This document shows positions 2,771-23,873 of a stretch of 23,898 bases of DNA, piece by piece. The notes below the pieces were generated by a model. The model was given only the letters and a program-made list of their open reading frames with translations, searched no databases and was not told where the DNA came from. The stretch is from a virus: IMG/VR virus record IMGVR_UViG_3300022924_000074, positions 1 to 23,898 of that record; one strand, 5' to 3'. Within the stretch, counting starts at the first letter, position 1; each line of letters opens with the position of its first letter. The position numbers and the translations under genes were made by a program.

Positions 2771-3162
2771 GGGCGGTCTCGGTGGAAGGTCACGGTAGAG
2801 TGGTCGCGCAGCCACTTGTGCAGCGGCATGCAGCGGGGGCCGCGCGCCGGGTTGATCTCCAGGATGCGCAGCCCGTCCGACGAATCGATGACCAGCGCAA
2901 CGTGGGTACAGATGCGCCCGATCATCACCGCCGCGATGGCGCCATGCTCAGGCTCGCAACGCTCCATGCAGGATGACTCTTCCTCGTAGGCCCTGGTGAA
3001 CTCACGCGGATCGGTATTGCGCAGGCTGCCGTACTCGGCCAGGAGACGTTTGCCCAGTTCAGTGTGGCGGACAAGACGGACTAGGCCCCAGCAATCGAAC
3101 TTGTCAGGGCCGCGGGCGCCGTCCTCGTAGGAGCAACCGAGATACTTATTCACCCAGAGCAT
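2767..3162 (-). CDS. NlpC/P60 cysteine peptidase, gpK-like tail-tip protein
   Basis: A 131-residue NlpC/P60 domain. This family cleaves peptide bonds in peptidoglycan stem peptides; in phage tails it sits at the tip and aids assembly or local wall penetration. The probable catalytic Cys24 is in FDCWGLVRLVR, the His87 in CTHVALVID, and a third polar residue is near EIN (102-104). Lambda gpK also has an N-terminal JAB/MPN domain; that part is absent here, as is a gpI-like gene. The start ATG at 3162 lies inside the end of the upstream HNH gene, 13 bases overlapping, with only a modest GTGAG ribosome site inside the HNH reading frame. The stop overlaps the J-like start as ATGA. Confidence 0.9.
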   Translation of the reverse strand: MLWVNKYLGCSYEDGARGPDKFDCWGLVRLVRHTELGKRLLAEYGSLRNTDPREFTRAYEEESSCMERCEPEHGAIAAVMIGRICTHVALVIDSSDGLRILEINPARGPRCMPLHKWLRDHSTVTFHRDRP

Positions 3163-4283: not shown

Positions 4284-6511
4284 AGGGCACCCATTACAAA
4301 CCAGGTTAGTTGCTCGTAGATCACGCTGTACACTTCGCCGGCGGCCACTGCTTCCGATTCCAGTTCGCCTTCCGCGTTGCGCACTTCAGGTTTGGCCGGC
4401 CAGGTGTTCAGTTGTACGACCGCGTAGTCTAGAGCATTCAGACCTTCTGTAGCGAAAGCTGCCACGACATCCTGGGCGATTACCCCAAAGTGCCGGCGTT
4501 CGATACCAGCCTCCATCTCGCTGCGCAGCAGGAAGGACCGGGTTAGACCCTTGCAAATCGTCGCTACGCGCTTCTCCGCTTCGGTAAGCGATTGGATATC
4601 TGCTTTCTTACGGGCGTCTGATGTAACCGTAAAGGCCACTTGCGTTGCGCCCCCAGCCCATGCTGCTCCTGCCGCACCGCACTGTGTCACGTTGTTGAAC
4701 ATCGGTTGGAAAGAGTTCTGACCCGAGTCGTTGGCTAGTCGTACACCGATGGTCTTGTTCAGTACGCCCGGCGAAGTTACGTGCTGATACTCGGCCACCC
4801 ACCAATCCGAGCGCCCTACGTACTGGCCGGTACCGCCGCCGGTGTAGTCGCTGTAAAAGCCGAAACCAGAAGACTGCAATTGGTTAGAGTCCCCGAACTG
4901 GTAGTTACGGATCTCATACGCTGGAAGGAAGCTGCTTACCTTGTGCGACAGGTAATTACGCAGTTGCAGAGTCACCCCATCGTTCTGTTTGTATGCCAGG
5001 CGGATGTTCGCTGCGATACCGAGGGTGTCAGCGTTCATGTAGCGATTGTTATCCGAGTTAATTATGCCTCGGCCCGTTGCATCCGTCTCGAAATCCACTG
5101 TTCCCGGGAACATCCGGCACCCTTCGACGTTGACCGTCGCATGGTCGGCGAAGATCTTGGACGAGCTGACCGAGTGCAGGAAGCAATTCTTCATGTCGAC
5201 AGGGCCGATCTTTTGACCCGTGAAGACACCGGCAGCAGCTCGACCCACGTTGTACGTGCATTGCTCAAAGTCTACGCCGATGAAGGTGATAGGTCCGTTT
5301 CCGGAACCGGCCAGCCAGCCGTAGTCGACCTTCTCAATGAAGCCGCCACTTACGATTACGCCGTTAGCTTCAGCGTCTTGGTCGAACAGGATACCGCCTT
5401 GTCCGGTTTTGAATTCGCCCCATATACGGGGGACGCTGATGGTCATGCCGTTGGCTGCGGAGTCTTTCAAGAAGTGCAGGGCGAATCCAGTGAAGTTCTC
5501 GATCACCGGTCCGTCGAATTTGAGGCCCCACGTGTGGGGACCAACTTGTACACCGTCCCCTGGGCTGAATTGGATTTCGCAGTCGATATTTGAGTACGGC
5601 ATGCGCTCTATGTAGATACCGTGGGCGGCAGTATCTTGGCAGTCAAGAATAATGCCTTTACCAACACGGGCTTTCCATCTCGCAGGGTTAGGACCGGTGA
5701 CTATCGAACCTTTCTGCCCTTTCATGAAGATGAACATGTGACCGTTCAGTTCAGTACCGCCGATCGCCAACGGTAAGTTAATCCCCGTATACCCGGGCAT
5801 CGCCACGATGCGAGCGTTATCGCCGTCTACCTGATGCGCTTCCTGAAACCATACAGGCTTGCTCACCATGTAGGTTCCTTGCGGAAACCAGAGTGGAGGA
5901 ACCAAGTAAGAAGGCCCTACCGATACACTGGCGTAAGAGGCCGCGAATGCTCGGGCAGCGTCAATAGCCGCCCAGTCGTCGGTCATGCCGTCGCCCTTGG
6001 CCCCGAAGTCTTTTACGTCGATGTACTGGCCCAACTTCTCCGGGAGGGGCCTACCGACTGCCCCCACGGCGTCACGCAACCAGCCGATGAGGCCCGCGCC
6101 ATTATCCGGATCGGTAATGTCTAGCAAGGCGAGGCGCAGAGAAGCATCGCCCACGTCGACTAGCAGGAGTTGATCGGTTGCCCAGTTGCCCGTCAGGTTC
6201 ACCGGGAAGCTTGCAGGCATCTTCACCTTGTACACGGAGCCGGCGCGGTCGATAAGCTGCGTAGGGCGCAGCACGGTAAGCGGCGTGCCGTCCACGTAGA
6301 CCAGGTGGGCAGCCTCGAACCCCATGGCCTCTAGGAAGTCGGTCACCAGCTTCTGCATGCCGGCCCATGTCTCACGACGCTTGTTGAAGCGGTCGTAGAA
6401 CGATGGCAGCTCCGAGTTCATCGCGTCGTCGAAGTTCGAGGCGTTGTTGAACAGCACCTTGACTTCCGTCGAGCCTAGTGGGAACTGCGTGGTTGGGTAG
6501 GTGTTGGCCAT
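4280..6511 (-). CDS. Tailspike with pectate-lyase fold and S74 autocleaved chaperone domain
   Basis: A 743-residue trimeric spike candidate that would bind and possibly cut capsule or O-antigen. The N-terminal part (1-160) holds an anchor helix region similar to that of the neighbouring spike. A pectate-lyase superfamily start, VKDFGAKGDG, lies at 166-175, followed by a long beta-helix-like region to about 460 and a beta-rich part to about 625. The C-terminal 115 residues match the peptidase S74 intramolecular chaperone: SDARKKADI places Ser631 and Lys636 at the five-residue spacing of the endosialidase Ser-Lys dyad, followed by HFGVIAQDV. In this family the chaperone folds the trimer and then cuts itself off just before the serine, so the mature spike would be about 630 residues. 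The start ATG at 6511 has AGAG eight bases upstream. The glycan target and catalytic residues of the beta-helix cannot be read from sequence. Confidence 0.85.
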   Translation of the reverse strand: MANTYPTTQFPLGSTEVKVLFNNASNFDDAMNSELPSFYDRFNKRRETWAGMQKLVTDFLEAMGFEAAHLVYVDGTPLTVLRPTQLIDRAGSVYKVKMPASFPVNLTGNWATDQLLLVDVGDASLRLALLDITDPDNGAGLIGWLRDAVGAVGRPLPEKLGQYIDVKDFGAKGDGMTDDWAAIDAARAFAASYASVSVGPSYLVPPLWFPQGTYMVSKPVWFQEAHQVDGDNARIVAMPGYTGINLPLAIGGTELNGHMFIFMKGQKGSIVTGPNPARWKARVGKGIILDCQDTAAHGIYIERMPYSNIDCEIQFSPGDGVQVGPHTWGLKFDGPVIENFTGFALHFLKDSAANGMTISVPRIWGEFKTGQGGILFDQDAEANGVIVSGGFIEKVDYGWLAGSGNGPITFIGVDFEQCTYNVGRAAAGVFTGQKIGPVDMKNCFLHSVSSSKIFADHATVNVEGCRMFPGTVDFETDATGRGIINSDNNRYMNADTLGIAANIRLAYKQNDGVTLQLRNYLSHKVSSFLPAYEIRNYQFGDSNQLQSSGFGFYSDYTGGGTGQYVGRSDWWVAEYQHVTSPGVLNKTIGVRLANDSGQNSFQPMFNNVTQCGAAGAAWAGGATQVAFTVTSDARKKADIQSLTEAEKRVATICKGLTRSFLLRSEMEAGIERRHFGVIAQDVVAAFATEGLNALDYAVVQLNTWPAKPEVRNAEGELESEAVAAGEVYSVIYEQLTWFVMGAL

Positions 6512-6546: not shown

Positions 6547-6562
6547 GCCGCCGTTAGGCGGC
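6547..6562 (-). other. GC-rich hairpin around the stop codon of the first spike
   Basis: GCCGCC and GGCGGC form a perfect 6-base stem around a TAAC loop. The TAA stop of the upstream spike gene lies in the loop. No T-run directly follows on the minus strand, so this is not a convincing rho-independent terminator. It could protect mRNA ends or slow readthrough. Confidence 0.35.
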
Positions 6563-8284
6563 AACCCCGTAAATTTGTCGGACTGCATCGCTACTGGTCG
6601 TGATGGTAAGCGACGTAAGCGACGTAACGCTAGCAACGAACCTCCCGCTCGCAGATGTAACGGCCACGTAGTCTGTGCCAACTGCCCATGCGCGACGAGC
6701 AAATGGCCGCGCTATCGCAGATTGGTACAGGCCGCCAGTGACGGCCCCCGTAGAGACCTCTATATGCTCGTAGTTATTCAAGCTATCGAGCAGGGTGACC
6801 ACTGTAGCTGCGCCCGAGGCGCTGCCGCTAAACAACAGCACGTGCCCGTCGATATTGGTCAGGGTACCAGCGTCCGTGTAGAAGTTGGACGTTCCTTTAG
6901 ATGCGCCGGTTGTTCCGATTTCGTTTCGACTGCCCGCCGCGACCCCATATGCGTAAGGGTATTTGTTCGTGTAACCACCGTCTCGGATGATATTTTCTTT
7001 TGCTTTGTTCTCGTCACCTTCTATGCGAATAGCCGAGAACTGTCCATTAACTGAGGTGCTGGCGCCACTTATGTTGTTGCCAGTTACAGTATTTCGGTTG
7101 CCGATTAGTACGGTAATCGCCTCTTCACCAATGTTGATGAAGTGATTCCGGCATATGAAGCTGTCATCCCATCCCTGAGCCCGAACGGCTTTCTTGGCGA
7201 TATTCTCAAAAGTATTATCTACGACTATCAATCGGCTATGGTGTGCAGCGCCGGCGGCAATGCCGTGGGAGGAAACCCCGCCGTACACGTTGCGGAACGT
7301 GCAGAATGCTACGATGATATTTTTGTCGACCGTAAGGTCATACACACCGAAACCTGGGAAGCCAGCGGCGTTGGCAGAGTCGATGTTGATGCACTCGTAC
7401 GAACCGGCGCCTGCGAACGTCTGATCTTGGAAGGTACATTTGAAGAACAGCGCGTCGGTGCTCGCGTTGATCTCGATATTGTGACTCTCCCAGCCGTTTT
7501 TGAAGACGCAGTATTCCCATACGAGCCCGATAGAGTGACCCATAACGAAGGCAGCAGAGGTCCGAACACCGGGGATACCTCCAAGGTCGAAGGTGCCGCC
7601 AGTAATCCTGATGTTACCGTCGCCTAGATACCCCGTGGCGTAAGTCGCGTTGCCTACTTCGCCGTTTACGAACATCCAGGAATCAAGGTTGCCGACGCGT
7701 TTAACTACCGTGCCGGGATCAAAGACCAAGTGCGTGTTTGCCCGAATTCTGTTATGGCGGTCTTTGACGTACGCCCCAGTGCTTAGGGGAAAGCCTACGG
7801 ATTTGCCGGCACCAGCAATTAACGCGGCCTCGATGGCCGCCCAGTCGATTAGATCTGCGCCGGAGGTTACGAACGGGTAGTCGACTTGCACCGCGCCCAG
7901 GTTTGCGTAGCCCCGATAAGCGGAAAAGCCGATCGTGTACCACTCCGATACCGGGTGGGAAGTGCCGTCCCCAATCGCGCCGAAGTCCTTAACGGAGATA
8001 TCATATTCCCGCGTCTTGGTTTGGATTGGCCTATCAAGATGGCCTGCGCCTACAGGACTGAACGTAACGAGATTCGCACCATTCGCAGCGGCCAGGTCGT
8101 TACGTAAGGAAAGCGCCGGCGATACTGCAGCCTCTAGACCCGCAAGCGTCAGACGCTCGGTACCTAGGCGATCTAAAAAGGTTTCGAGAGTGCTGTTAAC
8201 GATCTCGTCGATATGCTTGGCGTTATCGTCCAGGTCGCGAGGATCGATCGAAGGGACCGGGTTGCCCGTATTGTAAAAACTCAT
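6554..8284 (-). CDS. Tailspike / tail fibre protein with pectate-lyase-like beta-helix
   Basis: A 576-residue spike candidate. The N-terminus, MSFYNTGNPVPSIDPRDLDD, is the type of virion-anchor sequence I associate with tailspikes of Pseudomonas and related phages. A second anchor helix region (21-54) resembles residues 23-56 of the neighbouring spike. A pectate-lyase superfamily start, VKDFGAIGDG, lies at 98-107, then the usual spike insertion before DWAAIEAAL, then a parallel beta-helix with repeated short NxI/NxF turns (for example CTFRNVYGG, NTFENI, NHFINI). There is no S74 chaperone; a compact Ser/Thr-rich end closes the protein. The ATG at 8284 is chosen because it overlaps the upstream stop as ATGA and begins the conserved anchor exactly; a GTG 12 bases upstream is less likely. 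A depolymerase role is inferred from the fold only. Confidence 0.85.
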   Translation of the reverse strand: MSFYNTGNPVPSIDPRDLDDNAKHIDEIVNSTLETFLDRLGTERLTLAGLEAAVSPALSLRNDLAAANGANLVTFSPVGAGHLDRPIQTKTREYDISVKDFGAIGDGTSHPVSEWYTIGFSAYRGYANLGAVQVDYPFVTSGADLIDWAAIEAALIAGAGKSVGFPLSTGAYVKDRHNRIRANTHLVFDPGTVVKRVGNLDSWMFVNGEVGNATYATGYLGDGNIRITGGTFDLGGIPGVRTSAAFVMGHSIGLVWEYCVFKNGWESHNIEINASTDALFFKCTFQDQTFAGAGSYECINIDSANAAGFPGFGVYDLTVDKNIIVAFCTFRNVYGGVSSHGIAAGAAHHSRLIVVDNTFENIAKKAVRAQGWDDSFICRNHFINIGEEAITVLIGNRNTVTGNNISGASTSVNGQFSAIRIEGDENKAKENIIRDGGYTNKYPYAYGVAAGSRNEIGTTGASKGTSNFYTDAGTLTNIDGHVLLFSGSASGAATVVTLLDSLNNYEHIEVSTGAVTGGLYQSAIARPFARRAWAVGTDYVAVTSASGRFVASVTSLTSLTITTSSDAVRQIYGVAA

Positions 8285-8796
8285 GGCGTCGGCCACTCCT
8301 CATTGATAGCTTGATCGGTTTCGAGAATGTACACCTGCCAAGGGTTAAGAGGCCATTCGTCGTTCATAGCGTAATCGAATATTTCCGGGTTCAGTACGAA
8401 GGACGGCAGCAGCTCCGCCCACCCTGGCGGCAACAGTGGACGGTTTCGCAACTCGCAGGTGACGCGGTAACGCCACAGGAATTTCCCGGTAAGCTCGCCG
8501 CCGACCGGCACTTCTGTGAACCGGACTTCATGCTCGTTGAAACCCATAGGCGTCAAGAGCGTCATCGTGAACCAGCCTGCGCCGACGATCTGAGCAGCCC
8601 AAGCTTCGAACAACATGGCTTGCGGACCGGACATTATCCAGCTCAGCGACACCATGGTCGGAGCGTTCGGGAACTCGATACGCTGCCTGGCGCGGCCGCT
8701 GTCCATCGGGGTGCGCCGAATGTTATTCGTCGGCGTGAACCCGTAGTTCTCCCGCAGTGGGCAGGGCAGCCCTTCCGGGTAGACAGGAATCGCCAT
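8281..8796 (-). CDS. Minor tail protein, gpM-like by position
   Basis: A 171-residue protein directly after the tape measure gene, with a 1-base TGATG overlap, in the place of lambda gpM. The sequence has a short beta-rich body with FEAWAAQ, FTMTLLTPMG and FLWRYRVTCELRNRP, a pattern I associate with phage minor tail proteins in this position; I cannot name a specific domain with certainty. It probably joins the tail tip that caps the tape measure. GTGGGGC just upstream of the ATG can act as ribosome site. The next gene on the strand is a tailspike and not the usual gpL-like gene, so the tip operon is interrupted here. Confidence 0.65.
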   Translation of the reverse strand: MAIPVYPEGLPCPLRENYGFTPTNNIRRTPMDSGRARQRIEFPNAPTMVSLSWIMSGPQAMLFEAWAAQIVGAGWFTMTLLTPMGFNEHEVRFTEVPVGGELTGKFLWRYRVTCELRNRPLLPPGWAELLPSFVLNPEIFDYAMNDEWPLNPWQVYILETDQAINEEWPTP

Positions 8797-12084: not shown

Positions 12085-12567
12085 TTAGCTCGATGACTTA
12101 GGAATGAGGACCGGTTCGCCCGACACTTGAATGCCGACGGTCGAGGTGACCATGGTGTTCAGTGCGAAGGTGAATGGGTAGCTGTTCATGTAGCCTTCGA
12201 AGGTCAGCCAGCTGCGGGTAGGCGGCAGAACGAATTCATCGTCGCCGTTGCTATCGGTGCCGGTGGTCGGAGCTGCGGTGCCATCGGAGAACCCGATCGC
12301 CCATTGCAGGGTAACGCCGGCAGTCTTCAGCTGGTGCAGACGGATGTGGTTCACGTCAGCCGGATCGAACTGCAGGCCGAAGGTAGCGGCGCCCGGAGTG
12401 GCCAGGCCAGCTTCGTAGGTGCGCGACAGGTCATTCAGACAGGTCGTTTCGATCTGGTCGATCGCGGTGTCAATGCCGTCGATGGAGGTGATGCAACCCA
12501 CGTCCAGCAGGGCGCCGGTATCCGGGTCGATGGTATACAGGTCTGTTCCCTGGCTCTTGATGGTCAT
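12085..12567 (-). CDS. Major tail tube protein
   Basis: A 160-residue protein in the tail tube position, between the DUF3168-like terminator and the G chaperone. The sequence is that of a short tube protein: MTIKSQGTDLYTID at the N-terminus, GLQFDPADVNHIRLHQL in the middle, and a C-terminal beta-rich part with FEGYMNSYPFTFAL and TVGIQVSGEP. It polymerises as hexameric rings around the tape measure. The ATG at 12567 has GAGG eight bases upstream. A weak promoter-like pair lies in the 65-base gap before it, which would suit the high demand for this product. No C-terminal Ig-like decoration domain is visible. Confidence 0.85.
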   Translation of the reverse strand: MTIKSQGTDLYTIDPDTGALLDVGCITSIDGIDTAIDQIETTCLNDLSRTYEAGLATPGAATFGLQFDPADVNHIRLHQLKTAGVTLQWAIGFSDGTAAPTTGTDSNGDDEFVLPPTRSWLTFEGYMNSYPFTFALNTMVTSTVGIQVSGEPVLIPKSSS

Positions 12568-12632: not shown

Positions 12633-13001
12633 TCAGGTCCGTTCGACCAGCCAGTCTAGATCGAAGCTGGTTCGGTAGAGCAGCGTTTCTTCGTCGCGCA
12701 TATCGCCGCGGTAACCGGTGACGTACGAGTCGAGCTCAATCGCATTGCGGATCGCTTTCGCCACTGTGGTCGTAGACTGAGTGGTCAGGCCGTACACGTC
12801 CACCTGCAGGCTAGCTCGGTCGGCATCCGGTCGGCAGTTCAGCATGTTAAACGGCGAGCCGCCGATCCACTGGTAGACGACGTAGGGTTTGGCGACGGTC
12901 TGAGGAGCCATGCCGAACGGGTATATGCGCGGCGACGTACCACCCAGGAGCGACTGGACGGCCGGGTCAGCTTTGCACACCGTGTAGAAAGGTACGTCCA
13001 T
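12633..13001 (-). CDS. Tail terminator / completion protein, DUF3168-like
   Basis: A 122-residue protein with the DUF3168 pattern: N-terminal helix (FYTVCKADPAVQSLLGG), RIYPFGMAPQ, then KPYVVYQWIGG, and a beta strand LQVDVYGLT before a helix of the TVAKAIRNAIE type. Members of this family cap the tail tube at the head-proximal end, like lambda gpU, and stop tube growth. It overlaps the gp10-like stop by one base (TGATG), so it is translationally coupled. Its place directly before the tail tube gene fits. Confidence 0.8.
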   Translation of the reverse strand: MDVPFYTVCKADPAVQSLLGGTSPRIYPFGMAPQTVAKPYVVYQWIGGSPFNMLNCRPDADRASLQVDVYGLTTQSTTTVAKAIRNAIELDSYVTGYRGDMRDEETLLYRTSFDLDWLVERT

Positions 13002-13444
13002 CAGTTGAGCCCCAATTTAACGAGCTGAAATTTTGCGGAGGAAAGGAATTCTTGGAACACGGCCTGCTGGTTCTGCCCCAGCGCGTTACGCATGAAAGGC
13101 TGCGCGCGATTGCGCGATGTGCCCAGTTCGACCCACCACCAGTAGTACGTGTTGCCGCCGCGCTGCCCGCGTTTGGTCTTACGCACACCGACAGAGATCT
13201 TGGTCGAACCGGTCTCGGTGAAATACCCTTTGTCTTCGATCAGAGCGATGTTCTTTGAGATATCCGGGACCGTGGTTGGGTCATCGATTGCACCGGCGCG
13301 GCGGATGGCGTCTTTTAGCACGATGTCCATGGCGTCTTTGGCGGCCGGCACGACAACCTGGCGCTGTAGCTCAGATGGCAGTGTCTTGAAAACGCGTGAC
13401 AGTTCTTCAGCACCCTTCAGTTTGTACGTTATCCAGTCGGCCAC
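13001..13444 (-). CDS. HK97 gp10-like head-tail / tail completion protein
   Basis: A 147-residue member of the HK97 gp10 family. It shows the family order: an N-terminal helix with GAEELSRVFKTLPSE, a basic middle, then YYWWWVELGTSRNRAQPFM followed by a C-terminal helix. The WxxVELGTS and AQPFMRNAL segments are diagnostic. The family acts at the head-tail junction, probably as a tail completion or joining factor. The start is GTG at 13444 with a very good GGAGG six bases upstream. Both the start and its ribosome site lie within the last 20 codons of the HNH gene, which overlaps it by 38 bases in another frame. Confidence 0.85.
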   Translation of the reverse strand: MADWITYKLKGAEELSRVFKTLPSELQRQVVVPAAKDAMDIVLKDAIRRAGAIDDPTTVPDISKNIALIEDKGYFTETGSTKISVGVRKTKRGQRGGNTYYWWWVELGTSRNRAQPFMRNALGQNQQAVFQEFLSSAKFQLVKLGLN

Positions 13445-14180
13445 GTGGAACCTCCGGCGTGCGGGCGCCTTTTGCTATGTTATCCGCCGCCCATAACGGC
13501 TGCAGGTTAGTATAGTGGCATAGTCTCTCCAGCTCTTCTACGTTCCTCGCAGATGCTAGAGGTACGACGTGGTCTACGTGCCAACCGTAGAAACCTCTGT
13601 TAGCCCACGTCATCCCTTCTGTAAATTTCGATTCTAGATGCAGGCTCAAGGTCTCCATATCGCATCCTAGCAATTTCGCGGTTGTACTGCGCTTTGAGTA
13701 CCCTTTGTTCGCGAAGGCTAATAGCAATCTACGGCGGGAATTCATAAGCAATGCGAACAACGGATCTTCCTTGTAACGGAGCATTACGGTGTCTCGGTTG
13801 TACGAGTTGACCCTGTCTCTGTTTGCCGCTTTCCAACGCTTGTTATGGGCGGCTATCTTATTAGCGTTGCGTTTTCTGGCAACCGCACGCTTCTCTCGGA
13901 TCGTTTCTATATTTTCTCGATAGTATTTCTTGCGGTCTGCACTCACGTATTCTTTGTTGTTTTCATTCCACGTTTTTAGGTAGCCGCTGAGCCTTTCCTT
14001 GTTAGCCTCCCTATACCTCTTGCTGTCGGCATTTATCTTGCTTTTATTTTTGGCGTAGTAATCCTTTCCCTTAGCGCTCAAGCATGGTTTGCAACGAAAT
14101 TGCAAGCCGTCCTTCGCCTTGGTCATCGCGCCGAATTCAGTTAGGGGTTTTTCGATCTTGCAAAGGGTACATGTTTTCAT
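13407..14180 (-). CDS. HNH endonuclease with N-terminal zinc ribbon
   Basis: A 257-residue probable homing endonuclease. Cys4, Cys7, Cys30 and Cys33 form a zinc-ribbon-like start; residues 40-130 are a Lys/Arg/Asn-rich helical region with repeated YYxEN and NKxRW-like units, likely DNA-contacting; the HNH nuclease lies near 190-240 with HVDH (201-204), Asn225 and Asn234. The region is visibly more A+T-rich than the flanking genes, as expected for a mobile gene. Its final 13 or so codons are read from the start of the gp10-like gene in another frame. No good ribosome site precedes the ATG. The 93-base gap upstream, to the methyltransferase, shows no clear signal. Confidence 0.85.
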   Translation of the reverse strand: MKTCTLCKIEKPLTEFGAMTKAKDGLQFRCKPCLSAKGKDYYAKNKSKINADSKRYREANKERLSGYLKTWNENNKEYVSADRKKYYRENIETIREKRAVARKRNANKIAAHNKRWKAANRDRVNSYNRDTVMLRYKEDPLFALLMNSRRRLLLAFANKGYSKRSTTAKLLGCDMETLSLHLESKFTEGMTWANRGFYGWHVDHVVPLASARNVEELERLCHYTNLQPLWAADNIAKGARTPEVPRGRLDNVQTEGC

Positions 14181-14273
14181 GCGAAGCTCTCGGTCAGGAG
14201 GCAGTCGAAAGGTAATGCGGAAGACAGTGACTAGCTGGCTTATCGGGTGCCCCCTATCCGCAACACAACTTTA

Positions 14274-14891
14274 CTAGCTCACGCGTTTAAAAGCAAAGGA
14301 CGTAATGCCTTCGCGGCCTAGTTCCGTTTCGGCATGGTTGACTTCCATGACTTGGAAACCCTGATCCTCGGCCCATCGAATAAGCCCGGGGATTGAGAAG
14401 TACCAAAGATGTTCAGCCGGTTTGTAATGCTTGGACGCCAGGGCCTCTTCGGCACTTTCAAAGGTCGGAAGAGAAACGAAGAACCAATCGCGCACTTGAG
14501 CCAGTAGCTTTTCAGGCTCAGGGATATGCTCGAGGCTATCCCAGCAGGTTACGTGAGAAACGCTTTCGGTGTAGGGATCCGTGTAGGCACCGTTTTTCTT
14601 AAGCCAGTCGACAGCTTCACTGCTCACGTCGAAGCCGTTGCCCCAAGACTCCTTAACGTAGCGCCCTCCACCGATCCCGATATCCACCCCGCGCGAAGCC
14701 TTCGTGTACTTCTCGACCAGGGTTAGGCGCGCCCGGGTTAGGGCGGCACCCATAGGGGTGTCGTCAAGCTTCACGTAGTGGGCGAAGTATTCGCCGCTGT
14801 AGCTCATTGGTGGCGAAGAGTGCCAGCCGTAACCCTTTTCCTCACACCAGAGCAAGGTGTCGGTCAGCCCACTCGGTAAGCTTGGCGTCAT
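14274..14891 (-). CDS. SAM-dependent methyltransferase, class I
   Basis: A 205-residue methyltransferase of the small-molecule type (Methyltransf_11/23-like). Motif I is VDIGIGGGRYV (69-79), an acidic residue at 88 in GFDVS fits motif II, and CWDSLEHIPEP (116-126) with a following beta strand FFVSLP fits motifs IV-V. HLWYFSIPGLIRWAEDQGF is common in enzymes that act on sugars or lipids. The ATG at 14891 has AGAGGA nine bases upstream and is preferred over an ATG at 14918 without a ribosome site. It overlaps the glycosyltransferase gene by 50 bases, which suggests co-translation. The likely substrate is a sugar or glycan made by its neighbours, but that is inference. Confidence 0.8.
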   Translation of the reverse strand: MTPSLPSGLTDTLLWCEEKGYGWHSSPPMSYSGEYFAHYVKLDDTPMGAALTRARLTLVEKYTKASRGVDIGIGGGRYVKESWGNGFDVSSEAVDWLKKNGAYTDPYTESVSHVTCWDSLEHIPEPEKLLAQVRDWFFVSLPTFESAEEALASKHYKPAEHLWYFSIPGLIRWAEDQGFQVMEVNHAETELGREGITSFAFKRVS

Positions 14892-15669
14892 AGTTGGAAA
14901 TCCTCTTATCGCAGGCATGCTGCTTTAATTTGCACCGGCAAAAGTTGTCCGGCACCGCAAATGTAATTGTACTGCCGTCCGGGCAGATCTGCTTCGGCGA
15001 ATTGAAACCGCCTTGGCCGCCGCAGATGATCCACGCTGGAACCTTGGCCGCTAGCGCAGCAGGAACCAGCCAGCCGATACCGCCGATCACGGCAGCAGCA
15101 CCTTTCACGAGGGCCAGCAGTTGCTCGACCGGCAGTTCGCCTTTGTGATATCGCCTGTCTGCATGCGGAAGTGGCTCTACTGCCCACTCTTGCCCTTCTA
15201 CCAGGTCGGCAACGCTGACAACTCTATATCCCCTAGCCGAAGCCTTAACCGCAGCGCGCATAATGTACTCAGGATCAGGGTTACGCGTATCGGCGCGCCA
15301 CTCACTGCGCACTGTGGCCGGGCGCACAACGACGTAGGGGCCGGTTTCTGGAGAAGGCGGCAGAGGCGGAAGGTCGAACACGCCCGGCATTACGCCGAAG
15401 CTGGCAATCATCCCGGGGATAATTCCCTCGGTGCCGTAGCGGATCTGTCGAGTCGGTTGACGAGTCGGCGGCATCGTCCAGGTTGCATGGCGCGCGATGT
15501 TCTTCGCTTGGGTGCGCAGATTGGTTTGCGGTCGGATGAAGTGGACGCCGGGGATGTCGCGGTAAATTTCCGGCCAAGGTGTGTCGAGGTATACGGGTTT
15601 TGGTAGAGCTTTTATGAAAGAGCGTTGATATAGGTTGTCGCCGAGGCCCCGCATTCCGTGGATGATCAC
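14842..15669 (-). CDS. GT9-like (heptosyltransferase-type) glycosyltransferase
   Basis: A 275-residue protein resembling the GT-B fold heptosyltransferase family. The N-terminus, IIHGMRGLGDNLYQ, fits the GxGD start of these enzymes; the C-terminal half holds a Rossmann-like region with AAAVIGGIGWLVPAALAAKVPAWIICGG, where the family binds the nucleotide sugar. It ends with a small Cys cluster (244, 246, 253), not usual for the family, which may bind metal. It is shorter than LPS heptosyltransferases (about 320-350 residues). The start is GTG at 15669, overlapping the upstream stop as GTGA. Acceptor and donor are unknown; virion or host glycan modification is a guess from context. Confidence 0.65.
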   Translation of the reverse strand: MIIHGMRGLGDNLYQRSFIKALPKPVYLDTPWPEIYRDIPGVHFIRPQTNLRTQAKNIARHATWTMPPTRQPTRQIRYGTEGIIPGMIASFGVMPGVFDLPPLPPSPETGPYVVVRPATVRSEWRADTRNPDPEYIMRAAVKASARGYRVVSVADLVEGQEWAVEPLPHADRRYHKGELPVEQLLALVKGAAAVIGGIGWLVPAALAAKVPAWIICGGQGGFNSPKQICPDGSTITFAVPDNFCRCKLKQHACDKRISNYDAKLTEWADRHLALV

Positions 15670-15830
15670 GATATGGATACCGAATATTCGTCGTCCGGCT
15701 TATCCGCGTAGTAATACCTGACGAGCTCTGGGTCTCTCAGCACCCCTTCGTTATCGACTACGCCAATTTCCCGGTCACCGTTTACTGTTTGGACCAATTG
15801 CAGCTTGGCGATCAGTTCTGAAATTAGCAT
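15666..15830 (-). CDS. Small acidic protein of unknown function
   Basis: A 54-residue protein: MLISELIAKLQLVQTVNGDR, then EIGVVDNEGVL and an acidic, Tyr-rich end. The ATG at 15830 has TGGAG seven bases upstream and lies just after a terminator hairpin. A longer frame starting at 15950 would run through that hairpin and has no support. The stop overlaps the glycosyltransferase start. Phage genomes often carry small proteins of the type LISELIxxLxxxxxxxGD, usually described only as hypothetical; I assign no function. Confidence 0.7.
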   Translation of the reverse strand: MLISELIAKLQLVQTVNGDREIGVVDNEGVLRDPELVRYYYADKPDDEYSVSIS

Positions 15831-15845
15831 GGTCAAGCTCCAGGT

Positions 15846-15870
15846 AAAGAAGAGCCCGCCGAAGCGGGCT
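15846..15870 (-). terminator. Rho-independent terminator with TTCG loop
   Basis: On the minus strand, AGCCCGC and GCGGGCT form a 7-base stem around a TTCG tetraloop, followed by CTTCTTT. It would end part of the transcription coming from the DUF115-like gene and lower expression of the genes below it. Confidence 0.7.
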
Positions 15871-15906
15871 GAGGATGGCAGCACAGGAGAAAATGCCCGG
15901 GAATTT

Positions 15907-15969
15907 TTATCGAGGCTCCCGGTCCTCTTTGCGGCGTTGGTTGATCTCACGGCAGTTTGGCCTTCGCAT
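15907..15969 (-). CDS. Possible 20-residue basic peptide
   Basis: An ATG at 15969, preceded by AAGAGG four bases upstream, opens a 20-codon frame (MRRPNCREINQRRKEDREPR) that ends in TAA. It lies in the 157-base gap between the DUF115-like gene and the terminator. More than a third of its residues are Arg or Lys. Nothing else in the gap is convincing. It could be a genuine micro-protein or chance. Confidence 0.3.
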   Translation of the reverse strand: MRRPNCREINQRRKEDREPR

Positions 15970-16027
15970 GCTGCCTCTTGCTTTTAAACCTGAGTACAAG
16001 ACTCGTGAGCTACCTACGACCCAAACT

Positions 16028-16582
16028 TTAGTCGCGCACATCACAAGTGTCAACAACCTTTTGCAACTCTTTTTCAAGATGCCCGAGCCGGTAGCATTCC
16101 AACGCCGTTTCACGCGAACAATTCACGACTTGAGCCTTTTGCGGCAGCCGGGCGTGTTGCGCTGCCCATTTGCGGCACCGGAGTTCGTCAGGGTTCTTCG
16201 TGGTCGAATGATCGCCATGCCAGTGCGTACCGTTGGACACCGTGCAGTCGTACCCAAGAAGCAGGACGCGTTCTGCGCCGAGCTTGAAGGCCAGTTCAAT
16301 CGCTCTAAGCCCGCTGTTGTACTCCCCATATTTTTCATGCCAGTTCAACCCGTGCTTAGCCACTGCCTGGCGCGTACAGCTCCAGCGCTTCGGCCCTGAC
16401 GTAACCCACTGGACGTTCGCATCCCACCACGCGAGATCACCTGCGTAAAGGTGATCGCACCACGGGGCTAGCTGCCAGGAGTTGTTCACAGCGATTGTGG
16501 GAAGGCCGGACGCACGGACCAGTTCACAGTCGTGCGCGTTGAGGCTTGGGCCGGAGGCGATGCAGACGAAGGTTGTTGACAA
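16028..16582 (-). CDS. DUF115 / MptE-like sugar- or pterin-related protein
   Basis: A 184-residue protein with the GPSL signature near the N-terminus (residues 11-14, after a short beta strand), NNSW at 33-36, HLYAGDLAWWD at 45-54, NSGLRAIELAFKLG and LLLGYDC near 89-113, and HWHGDH at 120-125. This resembles the DUF115/MptE-like fold, related in outline to GT42-like sialyltransferases; some members help glycosylate flagella. The enzyme reaction cannot be stated. The start is TTG at 16582 with AAGGGA seven bases upstream. It begins a minus-strand accessory set with the glycosyltransferase and methyltransferase, and faces a divergent plus-strand gene across a 57-base control region. Confidence 0.6.
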   Translation of the reverse strand: MSTTFVCIASGPSLNAHDCELVRASGLPTIAVNNSWQLAPWCDHLYAGDLAWWDANVQWVTSGPKRWSCTRQAVAKHGLNWHEKYGEYNSGLRAIELAFKLGAERVLLLGYDCTVSNGTHWHGDHSTTKNPDELRCRKWAAQHARLPQKAQVVNCSRETALECYRLGHLEKELQKVVDTCDVRD

Positions 16583-16605
16583 GTTGCGATCCCTTGTAAT
16601 AGATT
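16576..16605 (+). promoter_or_regulatory. Sigma-70 promoter for the plus-strand 147-residue gene
   Basis: A perfect TTGACA -35 box (16576-16581) and TAGATT (16600-16605, four of six consensus bases) are spaced by 18 bases. Transcription would begin shortly before the ribosome site TGGAG of the plus-strand gene. The -35 box overlaps the first codons of the divergent minus-strand gene. Confidence 0.6.
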
Positions 16606-16639: not shown

Positions 16640-17083
16640 ATGGGTCTCGATTGTTCGAAGGACGCTTTTCACGGAGCCTACAGCGCTTTCAATTCTTTCC
16701 GTCAAGCCGTTGCGCACGCCGTAGGCGGCAGCTACCCGCCGCATTTCAAACGCGACGAAAAAGGGGCTCTGCTGCGCGGCGAGAAGGATCGGCCTGTCCG
16801 CGACGAAGCTTTAGACGAAAACAGTTTCTATACCGGCGACGAGTACACCCCCGCGAACAGCCCTGGGTTGTGGGAATTTCTGACTCATAGCGATTGTGAT
16901 GGGGAAATTTCGCCCGAGTTGTGCAAAACGGTCGCTGATGAATTAGAACTACTGCTGGACAAAATGCCTGAAGAGTCATTCGGGCACATCGCTCGTGACG
17001 GGGGCTATCGCGCAGTTCTTCAACGTTTCATCGACGGTTGCCGAGCTTCTCACAAAGACAACGAACCTCTGCGCTTCCGTTAA
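16640..17083 (+). CDS. Opposite-strand accessory (moron-like) gene, phage protein family of unknown function
   Basis: A 147-residue protein, the only clear gene on the plus strand. The start MGLDCSKDAFHGAYSAFNSF is of a kind I recognise from many phages and prophages, always without a function. Polar and acidic middle (GEISPELCKTVADELELLLD) suggests helices; GYRAVLQRFIDGCRASH follows near the end. No signal peptide or membrane segment is seen, so it is probably cytosolic. ATG has TGGAG eight bases upstream and its own promoter, so it can be expressed apart from the late operon, possibly in a lysogen. It ends tail-to-tail with the head-tail adaptor, the two stop codons sharing bases in TTAA. 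Confidence 0.8.
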   Translation: MGLDCSKDAFHGAYSAFNSFRQAVAHAVGGSYPPHFKRDEKGALLRGEKDRPVRDEALDENSFYTGDEYTPANSPGLWEFLTHSDCDGEISPELCKTVADELELLLDKMPEESFGHIARDGGYRAVLQRFIDGCRASHKDNEPLRFR

Positions 17084-17418
17084 CCCTCGTTAACCCCTCT
17101 CGAGCAGGGCGCACTGACATAGTCGCGCCCGCTTTCCTGATCCGGCAGCCACGCGTGGACGTTGTAGATATCGCCGTTATGCAAAATGCGTTGCTTGGCT
17201 TTCAGGCCGGGGCGATGGCGGATCACGATGCGCGCGATGATCTCGGACTGGATCGCCGCAGCAGCCAGGAATTCCCGACCACTGGCCGGGGCAATGCGCG
17301 CCGGCACGTCGGCGAACACTGTTACCCAAGCCTCCGTGAAGCCGCCGGTCTCTTCGTCGCGGACTTCGGCCCAGTCTTGGATGTCCACCCGATGGCGGTA
17401 CTGGCCGGCGCGGCTCAT
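17080..17418 (-). CDS. Head-tail adaptor (phage head-tail joining protein)
   Basis: A 112-residue member of the SPP1 gp16 / HK97 gp7-like head-tail joining family. It starts SRAGQYRHRVDIQ, continues with TWVTVFADVPARIAP-like sequence (read WVTVFADVPARIAPASGREF), and has IRHRPGLKAKQRI and YNVHAWLPDQ. These segments are diagnostic. The family forms the stopper ring below the connector. The start overlaps the upstream stop as ATGA. The 3' end touches the convergent plus-strand gene: their stops overlap at 17080-17083. In a standard operon the gp10-like gene would follow directly; here accessory DNA does. Confidence 0.85.
   Translation of the reverse strand: MSRAGQYRHRVDIQDWAEVRDEETGGFTEAWVTVFADVPARIAPASGREFLAAAAIQSEIIARIVIRHRPGLKAKQRILHNGDIYNVHAWLPDQESGRDYVSAPCSRGVNEG
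17107..17135 (+). terminator. Possible terminator of the plus-strand gene, inside the adaptor gene
   Basis: GGGCGC (107-112) pairs with GCGCCC (125-130) and an inner GAC-ATA-GTC stem extends the hairpin past a bulge; a short CTTTCC follows on the plus strand. The T-run is short, so termination efficiency is uncertain. Two copies of GTTAACCC lie just upstream. Confidence 0.3.
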
Positions 17419-19355: not shown

Positions 19356-20712
19356 TGTTTAGCCCCTTCTCTACGAGCATCGCGAGCAACTTCGCGCTGT
19401 CTTGGATTTCTTCGTCGGTGGGTTCTGCCGGTGCGGCCGGCTCTGTAGCTGCAGGCTGCGCGGTTGCAAAAGGATCTGCCTGCGCGTCGCGCTTGGCCAG
19501 TGCTTCAACAGAGTAGTTCTGCTGCTGGCTCAATACGGAGTCGCCCCCGGTGACCGGTGGCAGGTTCATACGACGCCGAGCTTCGTTCGGGGCCATGATG
19601 GTACCGCCTACGGCCAGTTTCAAAGTCTCTACCAGTGCGCCCATGTCCATACGCAGCAACCCATCGATGTCCAGCTCTACGCCGTACTTGTCCGGGACGG
19701 ATAGACCGTCGTCCATGCAGGCTTCGTACTCTTCGACGAGAACTTGGATACAGTCAGAGTAATATTTCTGGTTCTCTTGCGCGGCCGTGGTGCCGGTCGG
19801 TGAATTGGTTACGCCGACTTTGGACGGGGGAACGTGGAATGCAGTGCAGATCATTTCCGCGGTAAGCCGGAATTGCTCGATCAACTGCGAATCAGTGGCC
19901 GACATCTTCATCTGTTGGAACTTGAGATCGTCACCGACCACGGCGACCTTGCCCGCATTCTGGCCGGTGTAGTTCGCGTCCCAATGCGCTTTAAGTCGTG
20001 CTGCCGTCTCATCGCTGATCGCGCCGGGGGCCGACAGGATACCTCCAGGGCGCGCGCCGTTCTCAAAGAAGGTCGAGCTATCGCTTTGCATCTTGAGCGA
20101 TTGGCACGCGGCTTGCGCAGCGGCGTAGAGCGGCGAGACACCAACCAGGGGGTGAAACAAGCAGTTCATCCGGTCATGGATGATCTCGGACGCGGGCACT
20201 GTAACGCCGTCGCCTACGCGGTTCAGGTTGTCGTTTGAAAGCTGGTAGTAGATCGAACCGTCGTCAGCGACCAAGGGGAGCACGCGGCACGGATCGAGCA
20301 AGTAAATTGCCACGACGACGCCGCGCTGGTCACGCTGCTTCAACCCGTAGGTATTGCCGCTGATCAGCTTGGACGTCTGCCACCACTGCTTGAACTGGAT
20401 ATGGTTCTGGTAGTTGTTCGGCTTCTTTAGCACTGGGCTGAAAGCGGGGCTAGTGGTCTCTTTCCAGATACCGTTAGCGTCCAGTTCCATTAAGCGCTGG
20501 CGAAGTTTGCCAATGTCATTCGAGATCAGCGTTACGCAGGCGTAGACCGCGTAGTGCGCCAAGACAGATTCATTGGTCCATGAATCGTTCTTCTGCCATG
20601 CGCCTGAGTACGGTTCGCGGATCATCGGCCACCAGCCGCCCATGCCCGTACCGGGCGGCGACATCGGCGCGCGCTTGAAGGTTAGGGACAGCTCTCGGCC
20701 GAAAATGCGCAT
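19342..20712 (-). CDS. Portal protein, HK97-type
   Basis: A 456-residue portal of the HK97 gp3 (Phage_portal) family. Visible family features include SNDIGKLRQRL near the N-terminus, the wing region with LLDPCRVLPLVADDG, HDRMNCLFHPLVGVSPLYAA, and the stem-side PPSKVGVTNSPTGTTAAQEN. It forms the dodecameric ring at one capsid vertex through which DNA passes. An extended Ala/Pro/Glu-rich tail of about 50 residues ends the protein. The ATG at 20712 overlaps the upstream stop as TAATG. The terminase genes that feed the portal are outside the window. Confidence 0.95.
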   Translation of the reverse strand: MRIFGRELSLTFKRAPMSPPGTGMGGWWPMIREPYSGAWQKNDSWTNESVLAHYAVYACVTLISNDIGKLRQRLMELDANGIWKETTSPAFSPVLKKPNNYQNHIQFKQWWQTSKLISGNTYGLKQRDQRGVVVAIYLLDPCRVLPLVADDGSIYYQLSNDNLNRVGDGVTVPASEIIHDRMNCLFHPLVGVSPLYAAAQAACQSLKMQSDSSTFFENGARPGGILSAPGAISDETAARLKAHWDANYTGQNAGKVAVVGDDLKFQQMKMSATDSQLIEQFRLTAEMICTAFHVPPSKVGVTNSPTGTTAAQENQKYYSDCIQVLVEEYEACMDDGLSVPDKYGVELDIDGLLRMDMGALVETLKLAVGGTIMAPNEARRRMNLPPVTGGDSVLSQQQNYSVEALAKRDAQADPFATAQPAATEPAAPAEPTDEEIQDSAKLLAMLVEKGLNIEHA

Positions 20713-21002
20713 TAGGCAAGATCCTGGGTGTCGATAACGGCTTCAACATCGGACTTCTTGATGCGCCCGTCTTTACCGGTGCCAACAACCTTTTCGATAT
20801 CCACGCCATTCTCTTTGGCGAATTCCAGAATGGCCGGCGAGGCGAGAGGTTCGACGACAACTTCAACCGGTGCGCTGGCAGTCAGCATCCGAGTTTCATA
20901 TGTGCCGAAGCCCATCTTGCGCAAGGTCTCTGCATAGCGTTTGGCCATGGCTACGGTCTTACCGCCGCGGGCTTGGCTATAATGGAATTCGACTTTGGCC
21001 AT
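20712..21002 (-). CDS. Small protein with E3-binding (PSBD)-like domain
   Basis: A 96-residue protein. The second half (54-91) matches the peripheral subunit-binding domain of 2-oxoacid dehydrogenase E2 proteins: ASPAILEFAKENGVDI, then VVGTGKDGRIKKSDVEAVI, including the family's GTGKDGRI loop. In E2 enzymes this domain binds E1 or E3. The N-terminal half is basic (GGKTVAMAKRYAETLRKMGF) and not recognised. The ATG at 21002 has GAGGA eight bases upstream; a TTG at 21017 lies at that ribosome site and is not favoured. The stop overlaps the portal start, placing it firmly in the head operon. Similar domains in phages may serve protein or DNA binding; its partner is unknown. Confidence 0.75.
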   Translation of the reverse strand: MAKVEFHYSQARGGKTVAMAKRYAETLRKMGFGTYETRMLTASAPVEVVVEPLASPAILEFAKENGVDIEKVVGTGKDGRIKKSDVEAVIDTQDLA

Positions 21003-21033
21003 GCGGAAAATCCTCAAATTTAGCGGGAGTGTA

Positions 21034-22407
21034 TCACAAGCCTAGCGCAGCGGAATAAGCCGGTACGGCATACCCGGCGAGAGTTGCATAGCCCGCAGCG
21101 TTTGGATGAGTGCCGTCGTCGGTGGAGAAAGCCCAAGTAGTTGGGTCGATCCAAACCAGTTTAGCGTCCGCTTTGCCGTCCATGACACTTTTCAGGGTTA
21201 TGTTAGCCGCATCGACCAGGGGTTGCGCCGCTACGTTCGGCAGGATACCGCGGCATAGGACTTTTCCATACCCTTTGGCGATCAGCTTATCGATGCACGA
21301 CGCGTATTCAGCCTGCTCCGCAGGATCAATACCTCCCGCCGCGCTGTTGCCCCCGATCGCCAAGATCGCCACGTCGGTAGAAGCGACAGTGCGCGCCGGC
21401 AGAACGGTATCGAGGAGCGTGTTAAGGCCGCCGATCGTTAAGCCGCTTACGCCGCTGGTGCTACCGACGAAGCCCATGGCTGCCGCTACTCGCATTGTTT
21501 CGGTGTCGCGCGATGTAGCATTAGGCCCGGAGCCGAAAGTGATCGAGTCGCCGTATTGCTCCATCCGGCGGCGGGTGCCGACGTCTAGCAAGGTCGAGTC
21601 GCCGGCCACTGCGAAGTGTCCATTGTTGTTCCGGCCGTTGCCGTCGTCCCACACGTAGTAAGTGGCTGTGGAACCGTCACACGGAACCAGCATCGCCCGA
21701 ATCGGGTTGTCGGTCTCGTCTGCTACGGTGTAGAAGCTCGGGGCTGCGCCATTCTTGCTTACCGCGATTTTGCGCGAGCCGTTGACCGTTACGGCCAGTT
21801 TCGTGAACGCGCCGCGGATCTTGATCGAACCAATGTTTGAACCGTAGTTCTGGCCCTTCTGCGCTTGCATTGGCGGGGTGTAAGTCGCGGCGTTGGCTAT
21901 CTGCGCGCCGGAATAGAAACCTGTTGTGCTATTCGCACCGTTCTGAACTTTGTTCGAAAGCGTTACCAGGGCCGGCGGTTGACCGGTCACTTCGAGCACG
22001 TTGCCGGAGGAAGCAACGTAAGGCGCGTCGGCCATCTGCGGGTCGTATCGGACTTCAACGAAGCGCGTAGCGTGCGGCAGTCCGGTGAATAGCGTGTAAA
22101 CCGATCCGGTATTGGGCGCCAGCGTGAACGCGCCGCCGTTTAGAGCAACCTGCATAGAACCCGGCTGATCGCCAAAGTCTGACGGCGAAGTTAGTTTCGC
22201 TTCAGTGCCTGAAATAAAGCCGGACCACAGACTTACCGCGCCGCGCATGTAGATGCGGGCTGCGTTTTTGGTGGTGCTGACGGAGCCAGTGAGGCCGGGG
22301 GAAAATTGCGCAGCGGTGAAGTTTACGGTCGTAGGATCAGGGAGCGGTGGCGTCGGGGTTTCACCGTCGTCGCCCATAAAACCCATTTTCTGGATGAACT
22401 CGATCAT
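21034..22407 (-). CDS. SGNH/GDSL-type hydrolase, probable virion-associated esterase
   Basis: A 457-residue protein. Residues 1-275 are beta-rich and of unknown fold. The C-terminal third is an SGNH hydrolase: block I QYGDSITFGSG with nucleophile Ser288, a Gly-rich region near 318-327 fitting block II, block III AIGGNSA with Asn354, and block V DGTHPNAAGY with Asp431 and His434. All four signature residues appear present. Enzymes of this type in phages remove acetyl or other esters from host O-antigen or capsule. Here the gene lies between capsid and portal rather than among tail fibres. The ATG at 22407 has AGGGG seven bases upstream. It follows the capsid terminator, so expression should be below that of the capsid. 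Confidence 0.85.
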   Translation of the reverse strand: MIEFIQKMGFMGDDGETPTPPLPDPTTVNFTAAQFSPGLTGSVSTTKNAARIYMRGAVSLWSGFISGTEAKLTSPSDFGDQPGSMQVALNGGAFTLAPNTGSVYTLFTGLPHATRFVEVRYDPQMADAPYVASSGNVLEVTGQPPALVTLSNKVQNGANSTTGFYSGAQIANAATYTPPMQAQKGQNYGSNIGSIKIRGAFTKLAVTVNGSRKIAVSKNGAAPSFYTVADETDNPIRAMLVPCDGSTATYYVWDDGNGRNNNGHFAVAGDSTLLDVGTRRRMEQYGDSITFGSGPNATSRDTETMRVAAAMGFVGSTSGVSGLTIGGLNTLLDTVLPARTVASTDVAILAIGGNSAAGGIDPAEQAEYASCIDKLIAKGYGKVLCRGILPNVAAQPLVDAANITLKSVMDGKADAKLVWIDPTTWAFSTDDGTHPNAAGYATLAGYAVPAYSAALGL

Positions 22408-22466: not shown

Positions 22467-23873
22467 TTAAGCGCCAGTGCCCCAGTTCACGTTATCCAAC
22501 CAAGCGACGGCGCTGGTACGACGGCGCTGCCAGTTGATGAAACGCTCTGCCAGGAACGCGGTGCTGTTGGTCTGGAACATCGAGACCATCGAGGTAGGCG
22601 TACCGGTTGCGCTGTTGTTGGTAGGGTTGTCCAGCATCTGCAGCGAAGCTTCACGGGAAGCGTCGATGGTCACTTGACCGTCATCCGCCAGCCAGATGTC
22701 CGAAGCGTTCAGCAGAACAACCATGCCGCCGCCAGAATCAACCGGCAGGTAGTCGGAGACGATCACAGGCACGCCCATGAAAGTACCGCCGTTCATGGTC
22801 AGACCTGGGTACTCGGACTGGCCGAGCGGGTTCTGCATCATGCTGAGAGCCAACGCAGTGGTCGAGTCCATCAGGTACACGGCGTTACGCGGAGCGTTAC
22901 GTGCGGCGATGAACGGGGCCCACAGAGCGGCGACGTCGGCGCGGATGTCTTCAGCAGTGTTGCCACTGGAAGGAATGCCGGCGATGCCGTTGGTGATCGA
23001 AGCAGGCGAGACGTTGGCTACAGCGGCCTTGGCAGGGTCGATGAAGTCGATGTCGGCACGTTCAATTACCGCAGCGGCCAGGCCGTCACGCACGAGGCGT
23101 TCTGCCGAAGGATCGCTGAAGCGGATCAGTTCATTGGTCAGAACCGCGATGGTCGCGATTTTGTTCCAGCGAAGTTCGGTCGCATTGAAGTCGAATTGCG
23201 TCAGTGGCTTCGGCGCACCTTCACCTACCCAGTAAGCGTTACCGCCAGTGGTTTGGCCTGCGATGCGGACGTTGAACGGAATGCGGTTCAGCGACGGGAT
23301 ACCGCCGGTGCCGAACTGGCCGAGGATGGTGCGAGGACGCAGGTACTCGATGAAGTCGCCAGCGAAGTTCTGGTAATCAACCAGGGGGGCCGCCCAAGTG
23401 GTGTCGAGGGTGGTGCCGGCTTCGACGGTGGCTTTCATCAAGCCTTGCATCTTCTGGCCGCGGGCTTCCAGGTCCAGGGTTTTGATCATGCCTTCGTGCT
23501 GCGGATACTTCGACTTGGCGATTTCCACGGCCATCGCAGGGTTGTTCTGTGAGGCCATTTTGCACATCGCGTAACGGGCGAACAGGATGCCGGGTTCCAG
23601 CTTCTCGGTGTTCTTCGCTACGAGCGGAGCGCGCTGAGTCGATTTGGTGACGTCTTTAACCGGATCAGCGGAGGCTATGTTGGCTTTCTCCATCACTTCC
23701 AGGCGTTTGATGTGCACTTCAGCAGCTTTCAGCTCGTCGGTGATGGTATCGAACTCTTCTGACTCGGCTTCGTCCAGGGTGCGGCCTTCGGCGGCTTCCA
23801 TCAGTTCTTTTTGGCGCGCGGACTTCTGCACCATGGTGTCCTTGAAGGACTTGATTTGTTCTGCGAAATTCAT
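22467..23873 (-). CDS. Major capsid protein, HK97 fold
   Basis: A 468-residue HK97-type capsid protein. Residues 1-65 are charged and helical, with coiled-coil character (SARQKELMEAAEGR, DELKAAEVHIKRLEV): the delta-domain-like scaffold cut off during maturation in this family. The core shows FNVRIAGQTTGGNAYWVGEG and PKPLTQFDF (E-loop to P-domain pattern), then NELIRFSDPSAERLVRDGLA and a C-terminal beta-rich part. It forms the hexamers and pentamers of the head. The ATG at 23873 has a strong GGAGGG seven bases upstream. No prohead protease gene is visible in the remaining 25 bases to the window edge; it would be expected upstream. Confidence 0.95.
   Translation of the reverse strand: MNFAEQIKSFKDTMVQKSARQKELMEAAEGRTLDEAESEEFDTITDELKAAEVHIKRLEVMEKANIASADPVKDVTKSTQRAPLVAKNTEKLEPGILFARYAMCKMASQNNPAMAVEIAKSKYPQHEGMIKTLDLEARGQKMQGLMKATVEAGTTLDTTWAAPLVDYQNFAGDFIEYLRPRTILGQFGTGGIPSLNRIPFNVRIAGQTTGGNAYWVGEGAPKPLTQFDFNATELRWNKIATIAVLTNELIRFSDPSAERLVRDGLAAAVIERADIDFIDPAKAAVANVSPASITNGIAGIPSSGNTAEDIRADVAALWAPFIAARNAPRNAVYLMDSTTALALSMMQNPLGQSEYPGLTMNGGTFMGVPVIVSDYLPVDSGGGMVVLLNASDIWLADDGQVTIDASREASLQMLDNPTNNSATGTPTSMVSMFQTNSTAFLAERFINWQRRRTSAVAWLDNVNWGTGA

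Follow-up and report, generated by a model that had tools for sequence, protein, structure and literature searches.

The window analysed here is the whole 23,898-base stretch of viral DNA held in IMG/VR record IMGVR_UViG_3300022924_000074, whose minus strand encodes the structural operon of a siphovirus. Its subject is a set of three minus-strand genes located between the genes for the head closure protein Hc1 (17080-17418, minus strand; PF05521, 9e-24; phrog_25, 5e-26) and a gp10-like neck/tail completion protein (13001-13444, minus strand; phrog_5, 2e-17). In the direction of transcription, these are mini-Maf, a 184-amino-acid DUF115/GT42-fold glycosyltransferase domain with a TTG start (16028-16582; phrog_4603, 1e-50), a GT9-like GT-B glycosyltransferase with a GTG start (14842-15669; phrog_6804, 4e-126), and a class I S-adenosylmethionine (SAM) methyltransferase of the Methyltransf_23 family (14274-14891; PF13489, 1.2e-10; phrog_6564, 7e-91). 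The longest open reading frame (ORF) of the methyltransferase begins at 14918, and a GAGG lies upstream of the start at 14891. A small acidic ORF of 54 amino acids (15666-15830, minus strand) separates the first two genes, and all four ORFs were found where an earlier reading of the sequence (the original prediction) had placed them. The dN/dS values of the three enzyme genes against nine relatives (0.04-0.28) reflect purifying selection, and these are therefore real, constrained, functional genes.

The original prediction described four genes coupled by overlaps and inserted between two structural genes that normally adjoin. The small ORF and the GT9-like gene do overlap by GTGA, as do the GT9-like and methyltransferase genes by 50 bases if the latter starts at 14891, but the mini-Maf gene is not coupled by an overlap, being followed by approximately 200 bases that include a terminator-like hairpin (15853-15870, minus strand). 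This hairpin was rejected as a module boundary, such sites being no commoner than in shuffled sequences. The small acidic ORF is a local feature that falls outside the conserved unit because it had no tblastn match in 287 other loci. Nor are the two structural genes adjacent in the relatives of this phage, as the GT9-like and methyltransferase genes precede gp10 in all 52 loci with all five genes. The enzymes do lie between Hc1 and gp10, but they are not the sole insert in that interval. A plus-strand gene (16640-17083; phrog_11026, unknown function) that runs against the structural operon lies between Hc1 and mini-Maf, is accompanied by a promoter-like site (16576-16605), and occupies the same place in L028 and L105, two related loci. 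An HNH/endonuclease-VII-like gene (13407-14180, minus strand; phrog_1035, 2e-24) lies between the methyltransferase and gp10 genes; it is mobile, occupies varied positions in relatives, and is not part of the cassette.

Co-occurrence in related phages had been proposed as a check, and the three genes were indeed found together and in order in phages D3, PAJU2, and Eowyn and in hundreds of viral contigs. D3 carries them as orf7 and then orf12-13, immediately ahead of the gp10-like orf14, and PAJU2 as gp10-12, flanked by Hc1 and a gp10-like gene, while in the Klebsiella jumbo phage Eowyn they form a block of their own, encoded on the other strand from the surrounding genes. The same genes are present in Psp6 and Enterobacter phage Mulvp2, and a Synechococcus phage has the GT9-like and methyltransferase genes only, with a T4-like neck gene nearby. 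PmgO of phage P1 is a mini-Maf homologue (39% identity). Among 50,697 phage records, no GT9 or methyltransferase match was found in those of P1; such matches occurred in phages of Pseudomonas, Klebsiella, Serratia, Enterobacter, and Synechococcus and in one uncultured phage, and no phage of a Gram-positive host was named among them. A profile scan of IMG/VR identified GT9 relatives in 421 stretches and DUF115 relatives in at least 545. In close sets, all three genes were present in 174 of 182 IMG/VR loci, several of which share one contig; for loci taken from bacterial genomes, the figure was 19 of 22. The order DUF115-GT9-methyltransferase on one strand was kept in 95 of 97 non-redundant loci, and DUF115 and GT9 were fused as a single ORF in two contigs (L210 and L214). 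Many loci have head, neck, and tail genes as neighbours, and others have spanin or HNH genes. One locus titled Chryseobacterium (L269), whose GT9 is 46% identical to the query and as close as those of Pantoea and Enterobacter loci, may be a contaminating contig.

Mini-Maf scores 21.3 bits against PF01973, below the cut-off of 34.6. Sequence-profile searches of the PDB returned nothing meaningful, and a Foldseek search with the AlphaFold2 model (pLDDT 90.1) gave no match below E 1e-3; the relationship to Maf emerged only from structural realignment. There, the best match was Magnetospirillum Maf 5mu5 (residues 271-516; Z 14.6 over 164 residues, 2.9 Å), followed by the GT42 sialyltransferase CstII (Z 10.9) and the archaeal HPPK/MptE of M. 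jannaschii (Z 10.4). In the earlier label “DUF115/MptE-like”, MptE-like is the name of a fold group; of the solved structures, that of a Maf flagellin glycosyltransferase is nearest. Maf proteins have two domains besides the catalytic one and act on flagellin (PMC11339370). In mini-Maf, the N-terminal Rossmann-like and C-terminal helical domains are absent and the catalytic domain fills all 184 amino acids; the model is that of the catalytic domain of a Maf flagellin glycosyltransferase standing alone. Like Maf (PF01973, DUF115 central domain), it has the catalytic fold and is encoded in a cluster with the genes of a self-assembling protein machine; unlike Maf, it is short, falls below the Pfam cut-off, and has no flagellin context. 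Its invariant residues are GPSL, N33, D49, WW, D112, and H120/H122/H125, with G11-P12-S13-L14 invariant in 50 sequences. We take GPSL to be the equivalent of the GT42 nucleotide-binding motif, and mini-Maf thus has both a CstII-like fold and a GPSL-type motif, as in GT42. We propose that it is an initiating protein glycosyltransferase. The phrog_4603 name “alpha-2,3-sialyltransferase”, which also covers P1 PmgO, is an annotation name only. PmgO differs in that the P1 records gave no GT9 or methyltransferase match, and it is called putative morphogenetic; under laboratory conditions P1 can do without pmgO (PMC10695390), which fits what a decoration would predict.

The model of the GT9-like protein (pLDDT 95.2) retrieved the autotransporter heptosyltransferase TibC in the first 21 Foldseek rows (best E 2e-8), and upon realignment it matched TibC (Z 17.5), Veillonella GT9 3tov (Z 17.3, tied), WaaF (Z 16.1), and WaaC (Z 15.4). 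Family scores are low, at 14.1 bits against NCBIfam TIGR04414 (cut-off 200), and only one of 17 members matches the GT9 heptosyltransferase profile PF01075, at E 0.069 and short of the gathering score, although the fold matches WaaF, WaaC, and TibC. In 69 sequences, D11 and the cluster C244-x-C246-x4-H251-x-C253 are invariant. TibC acts on autotransporters, with D110 as its catalytic Asp (PMC4358343), and D11 matches that position in a GT-B catalytic domain closest to TibC. The N-terminal beta-barrel of TibC (1-97) is absent, as residue 1 of the model aligns at TibC 99. The invariant Cys/His residues were considered as the TibC iron finger (C339, C342, C358, C370), but their spacing differs (CxC-x4-H-x-C versus CxxC-x15-C-x11-C) and this candidate was rejected. 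The protein thus resembles TibC/AAH (BAHT) in its best solved match, catalytic Asp position, and C-terminal Cys cluster and differs in its missing barrel, its Cys pattern, and the apparent loss of R286 and W305. Because the iron-finger spacing differs and the residues that bind the donor in TibC are apparently not retained, we call it TibC-like and not a BAHT member. We propose that it adds a second sugar and that the methyltransferase, in which D79-x-G81-x-G83-x-G85 is invariant, produces a sugar O-methyl cap. A clear membrane segment was found in none of the three proteins.

Co-evolution was assessed in one set of 70 loci with related sequences. The divergence of mini-Maf correlates with that of Hc1 (0.86), the tail tube protein (0.78), the tail terminator (0.77), and gp10 (0.74), and its correlation with GT9 is 0.42, falling to 0.07 with Hc1 controlled. 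GT9 and the methyltransferase correlate with each other at 0.71, or 0.61 with Hc1 controlled. As the GT9-like and methyltransferase genes sit between mini-Maf and gp10, position alone does not explain this pattern. Correlation with the capsid protein was 0.21 in the 33 loci having a capsid gene, which disfavours the capsid as an acceptor, although capsid alleles of ~94% and ~55% identity alternate in the lineage of the window. As the neck and tail genes of that lineage remain similar, the alternation of the major capsid gene (22467-23873, minus strand, in the window) represents capsid module swapping.

In three loci (L088, L094, and L115), the GT9-methyltransferase block shows 56-62% protein identity within flanks of 79-94% DNA identity; judged from sequence comparison, the block is exchanged for a diverged copy within the region. 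The methyltransferase also falls independently into two broad classes (~60-73% and 78-89%) with GT9 staying close. Where mini-Maf occurs without GT9 and the methyltransferase, it is often followed by glycosyltransferase or methyltransferase genes of other kinds, some with weak family matches: GT2 with phrog_1962, GT8-like with phrog_1962, Methyltransf_24 with GT4-like, or a second DUF115 gene. The exceptions among the loci tested are two with a radical SAM or structural gene and one without a match. In L232 (1107-2063), a radical SAM enzyme replaces GT9 and the methyltransferase directly after mini-Maf, and in L247 (5944-7079), two distinct DUF115-fold genes, phrog_4603-like and then phrog_2111, stand in tandem. 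Within the lineage of the window, mini-Maf and GT9 are separated by an HNH-endonuclease gene in five of five diverged-GT9 loci and in one of 43 others (Fisher p 3.5e-6, which overstates the significance as the loci are related). HNH/endonuclease-VII-like genes occur at differing sites around the cassette in L088, L094, L095, L115, and L117, and some 80-90 bases beside the endonuclease gene of the window (near 14183-14273) match the stretch following mini-Maf in L088, L094, and L115. The endonuclease gene therefore moves, and it may be a driver of cassette exchange. The original idea of a glycan-building cassette is supported by the family matches and folds, by the fused ORFs, and by the way in which the genes occur together and change partners.

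What the analysis shows is the identity of the genes, the folds predicted for their products, their linkage and fusion, the purifying selection on them, the co-evolution pattern, and the swaps; the acceptor, donors, and order of steps are inferred. The three genes probably encode a late-expressed cytoplasmic O-glycosylation system for a virion protein, most likely of the neck or tail and not the capsid, that would draw on the nucleotide sugars of the host. Mini-Maf would place the first sugar on a Ser/Thr of the acceptor from a CMP-ulosonate, with CMP-Kdo the likeliest in lipopolysaccharide (LPS)-making hosts; the TibC-like enzyme would attach a second sugar, perhaps heptose from ADP-heptose; and the methyltransferase would cap the glycan. 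Both glycosyltransferases model on cytoplasmic protein glycosyltransferases, namely Maf (flagellin) and TibC (autotransporters), and that the acceptor is a protein is likely; that it is a virion protein is somewhat less so, while still favoured. The initiator would stay fitted to its neck/tail acceptor module, with extension and capping enzymes traded between phages, and related virions would therefore differ in their glycans. The Ser tail at the C-terminus of the tail tube protein (12085-12567, minus strand; PF16460, 4.5e-59) is only a candidate acceptor; K-S-(S/T/A)-S is conserved there in the lineage of the window, but in D3-type phages the terminus is mostly K-(S/T)-A. The original record of PAJU2 gives ORF010 the label “structural protein”, but the basis for this was not found in open papers and the label was not used as evidence.

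The donor identities are tentative. GT42/Maf enzymes use CMP-sugar donors, GT9 enzymes commonly use ADP-heptose, and CMP-Kdo and ADP-heptose are both precursors of the LPS inner core, so the Gram-negative-type host range fits such donors without being proof of them. Kdo or heptose is probably missing from the LPS of many cyanobacteria and rhizobia, an argument for some donor variation. Because the donor residues of TibC lack apparent counterparts in a weak alignment, heptose is a guess and ADP-heptose unproven. A Maf of C. botulinum accepts CMP-Kdo (PMC11339370).

The original prediction left open whether the glycan is built on the virion or on the host surface, possibly excluding other phages. 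If the enzymes changed a surface glycan of the host during infection or lysogeny, whether LPS core, O-antigen, or some other, and so blocked other phages, this would be in keeping with a GT9 family that includes the LPS heptosyltransferases WaaC and WaaF (Z 15-16 to the model), with the LPS sialyltransferases among GT42, and with the serotype conversion known for D3-type phages, which use other genes for it. The evidence leans instead to a virion protein because of the protein-glycosyltransferase folds, the late neck-region site in the structural operon, the tracking of neck and tail proteins by mini-Maf, and a conserved three-gene set with no clear membrane protein and with neither the membrane flippase nor the lipid-linked transferase of gtr-type serotype conversion. 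We therefore consider host-surface modification unlikely, and no support was found for the exclusion of other phages. Late glycosylation of a host protein such as flagellin or pilin, instead of a virion protein, is less likely still: Maf targets flagellin and TibC autotransporters (PMC11339370, PMC4358343), but the cassette occurs in phages of diverse genera, often in structural operons, with mini-Maf tracking virion genes.

Several observations weigh against virion glycosylation. The co-evolution of mini-Maf with the neck genes could come from linkage alone, and some loci (those of Eowyn and of Pantoea prophages) have the trio at a distance from neck genes. Maf and TibC naturally act on cell-surface proteins, so the acceptor may be a host protein. 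In Z score, 3tov ties with TibC, and the TibC donor residues R286 and W305 align to L184 and P203, though weakly (E 0.04). No glycan or glycosylated virion protein of these phages was reported in the literature searched. Finally, the DUF115 fold is common to HPPK/MptE and the thiamine pyrophosphokinases (Z ~10). That the DUF115 protein is itself such a pyrophosphokinase, in a set that makes or modifies a small molecule, would agree with these scores and with a Pfam match named MptE-like, yet it is improbable given the clearly higher score of Maf, the fusion of DUF115 to a glycosyltransferase, and the exchange partners, which are glycosyltransferases and methyltransferases. Least probable of all is glycosylation of a modified base in phage DNA, although DNA glycosyltransferases of the GT-B fold are known, phrog_842 (hydroxymethylcytosine glucosyltransferase) is matched by two neighbouring proteins, and TAGT is weakly matched by one alternative partner. 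Against it, no gene for a base hydroxylase or hydroxymethylase was seen in linkage with the trio, the folds match protein glycosyltransferases, and the genes are situated among late genes.

Elsewhere in the window, an SGNH/GDSL hydrolase gene (21034-22407, minus strand; PF13472, 1.5e-12) lies between the capsid and portal genes. A small protein with an E3-binding (lipoyl-complex peripheral subunit) domain (20712-21017, minus strand; PF02817, 7e-14) is encoded in the head cluster between the portal and SGNH genes, an unusual location for this domain. Two spike-like proteins are encoded on the minus strand, one with a pectate-lyase-like domain and a C-terminal S74 chaperone (4280-6511) and one with a weak beta-helix match (6554-8296), and a second HNH gene (3150-3695, minus strand; PF13392) adjoins an NlpC/P60 tail gene.

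The job of the trio had not been worked out previously, and it is best read as glycosylation of the virion by a combination of Maf-like and TibC-like enzymes. Glycosyltransferases of mycobacteriophages decorate the capsid and tail tube (Freeman et al. 2023, as cited in PMC10877033 and PMC12619734). The system proposed here would likewise involve phage glycosyltransferases acting on virion proteins, but it belongs to other hosts and combines a Maf-like initiator with a GT9 and a methyltransferase. It offers a concrete function for genes of D3, PAJU2, and P1 (PmgO) annotated as hypothetical, “sialyltransferase”, or “methyltransferase”. More speculatively, minimal Maf virion glycosylation may be widespread in phages of LPS-bearing bacteria, with a constant initiator tied to neck/tail proteins, diverting CMP-Kdo and ADP-heptose to the virion and yielding exchangeable glycotypes as phages swap elongation and methyl-capping genes with the help of homing-type endonucleases. 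If the proposal is true, virion glycosylation, reported for mycobacteriophages in the literature consulted, would be frequent among phages with Gram-negative hosts and would employ the kinds of enzyme that glycosylate flagellin and autotransporters, and exchangeable glycotypes would bear on the recognition and stability of phage particles.

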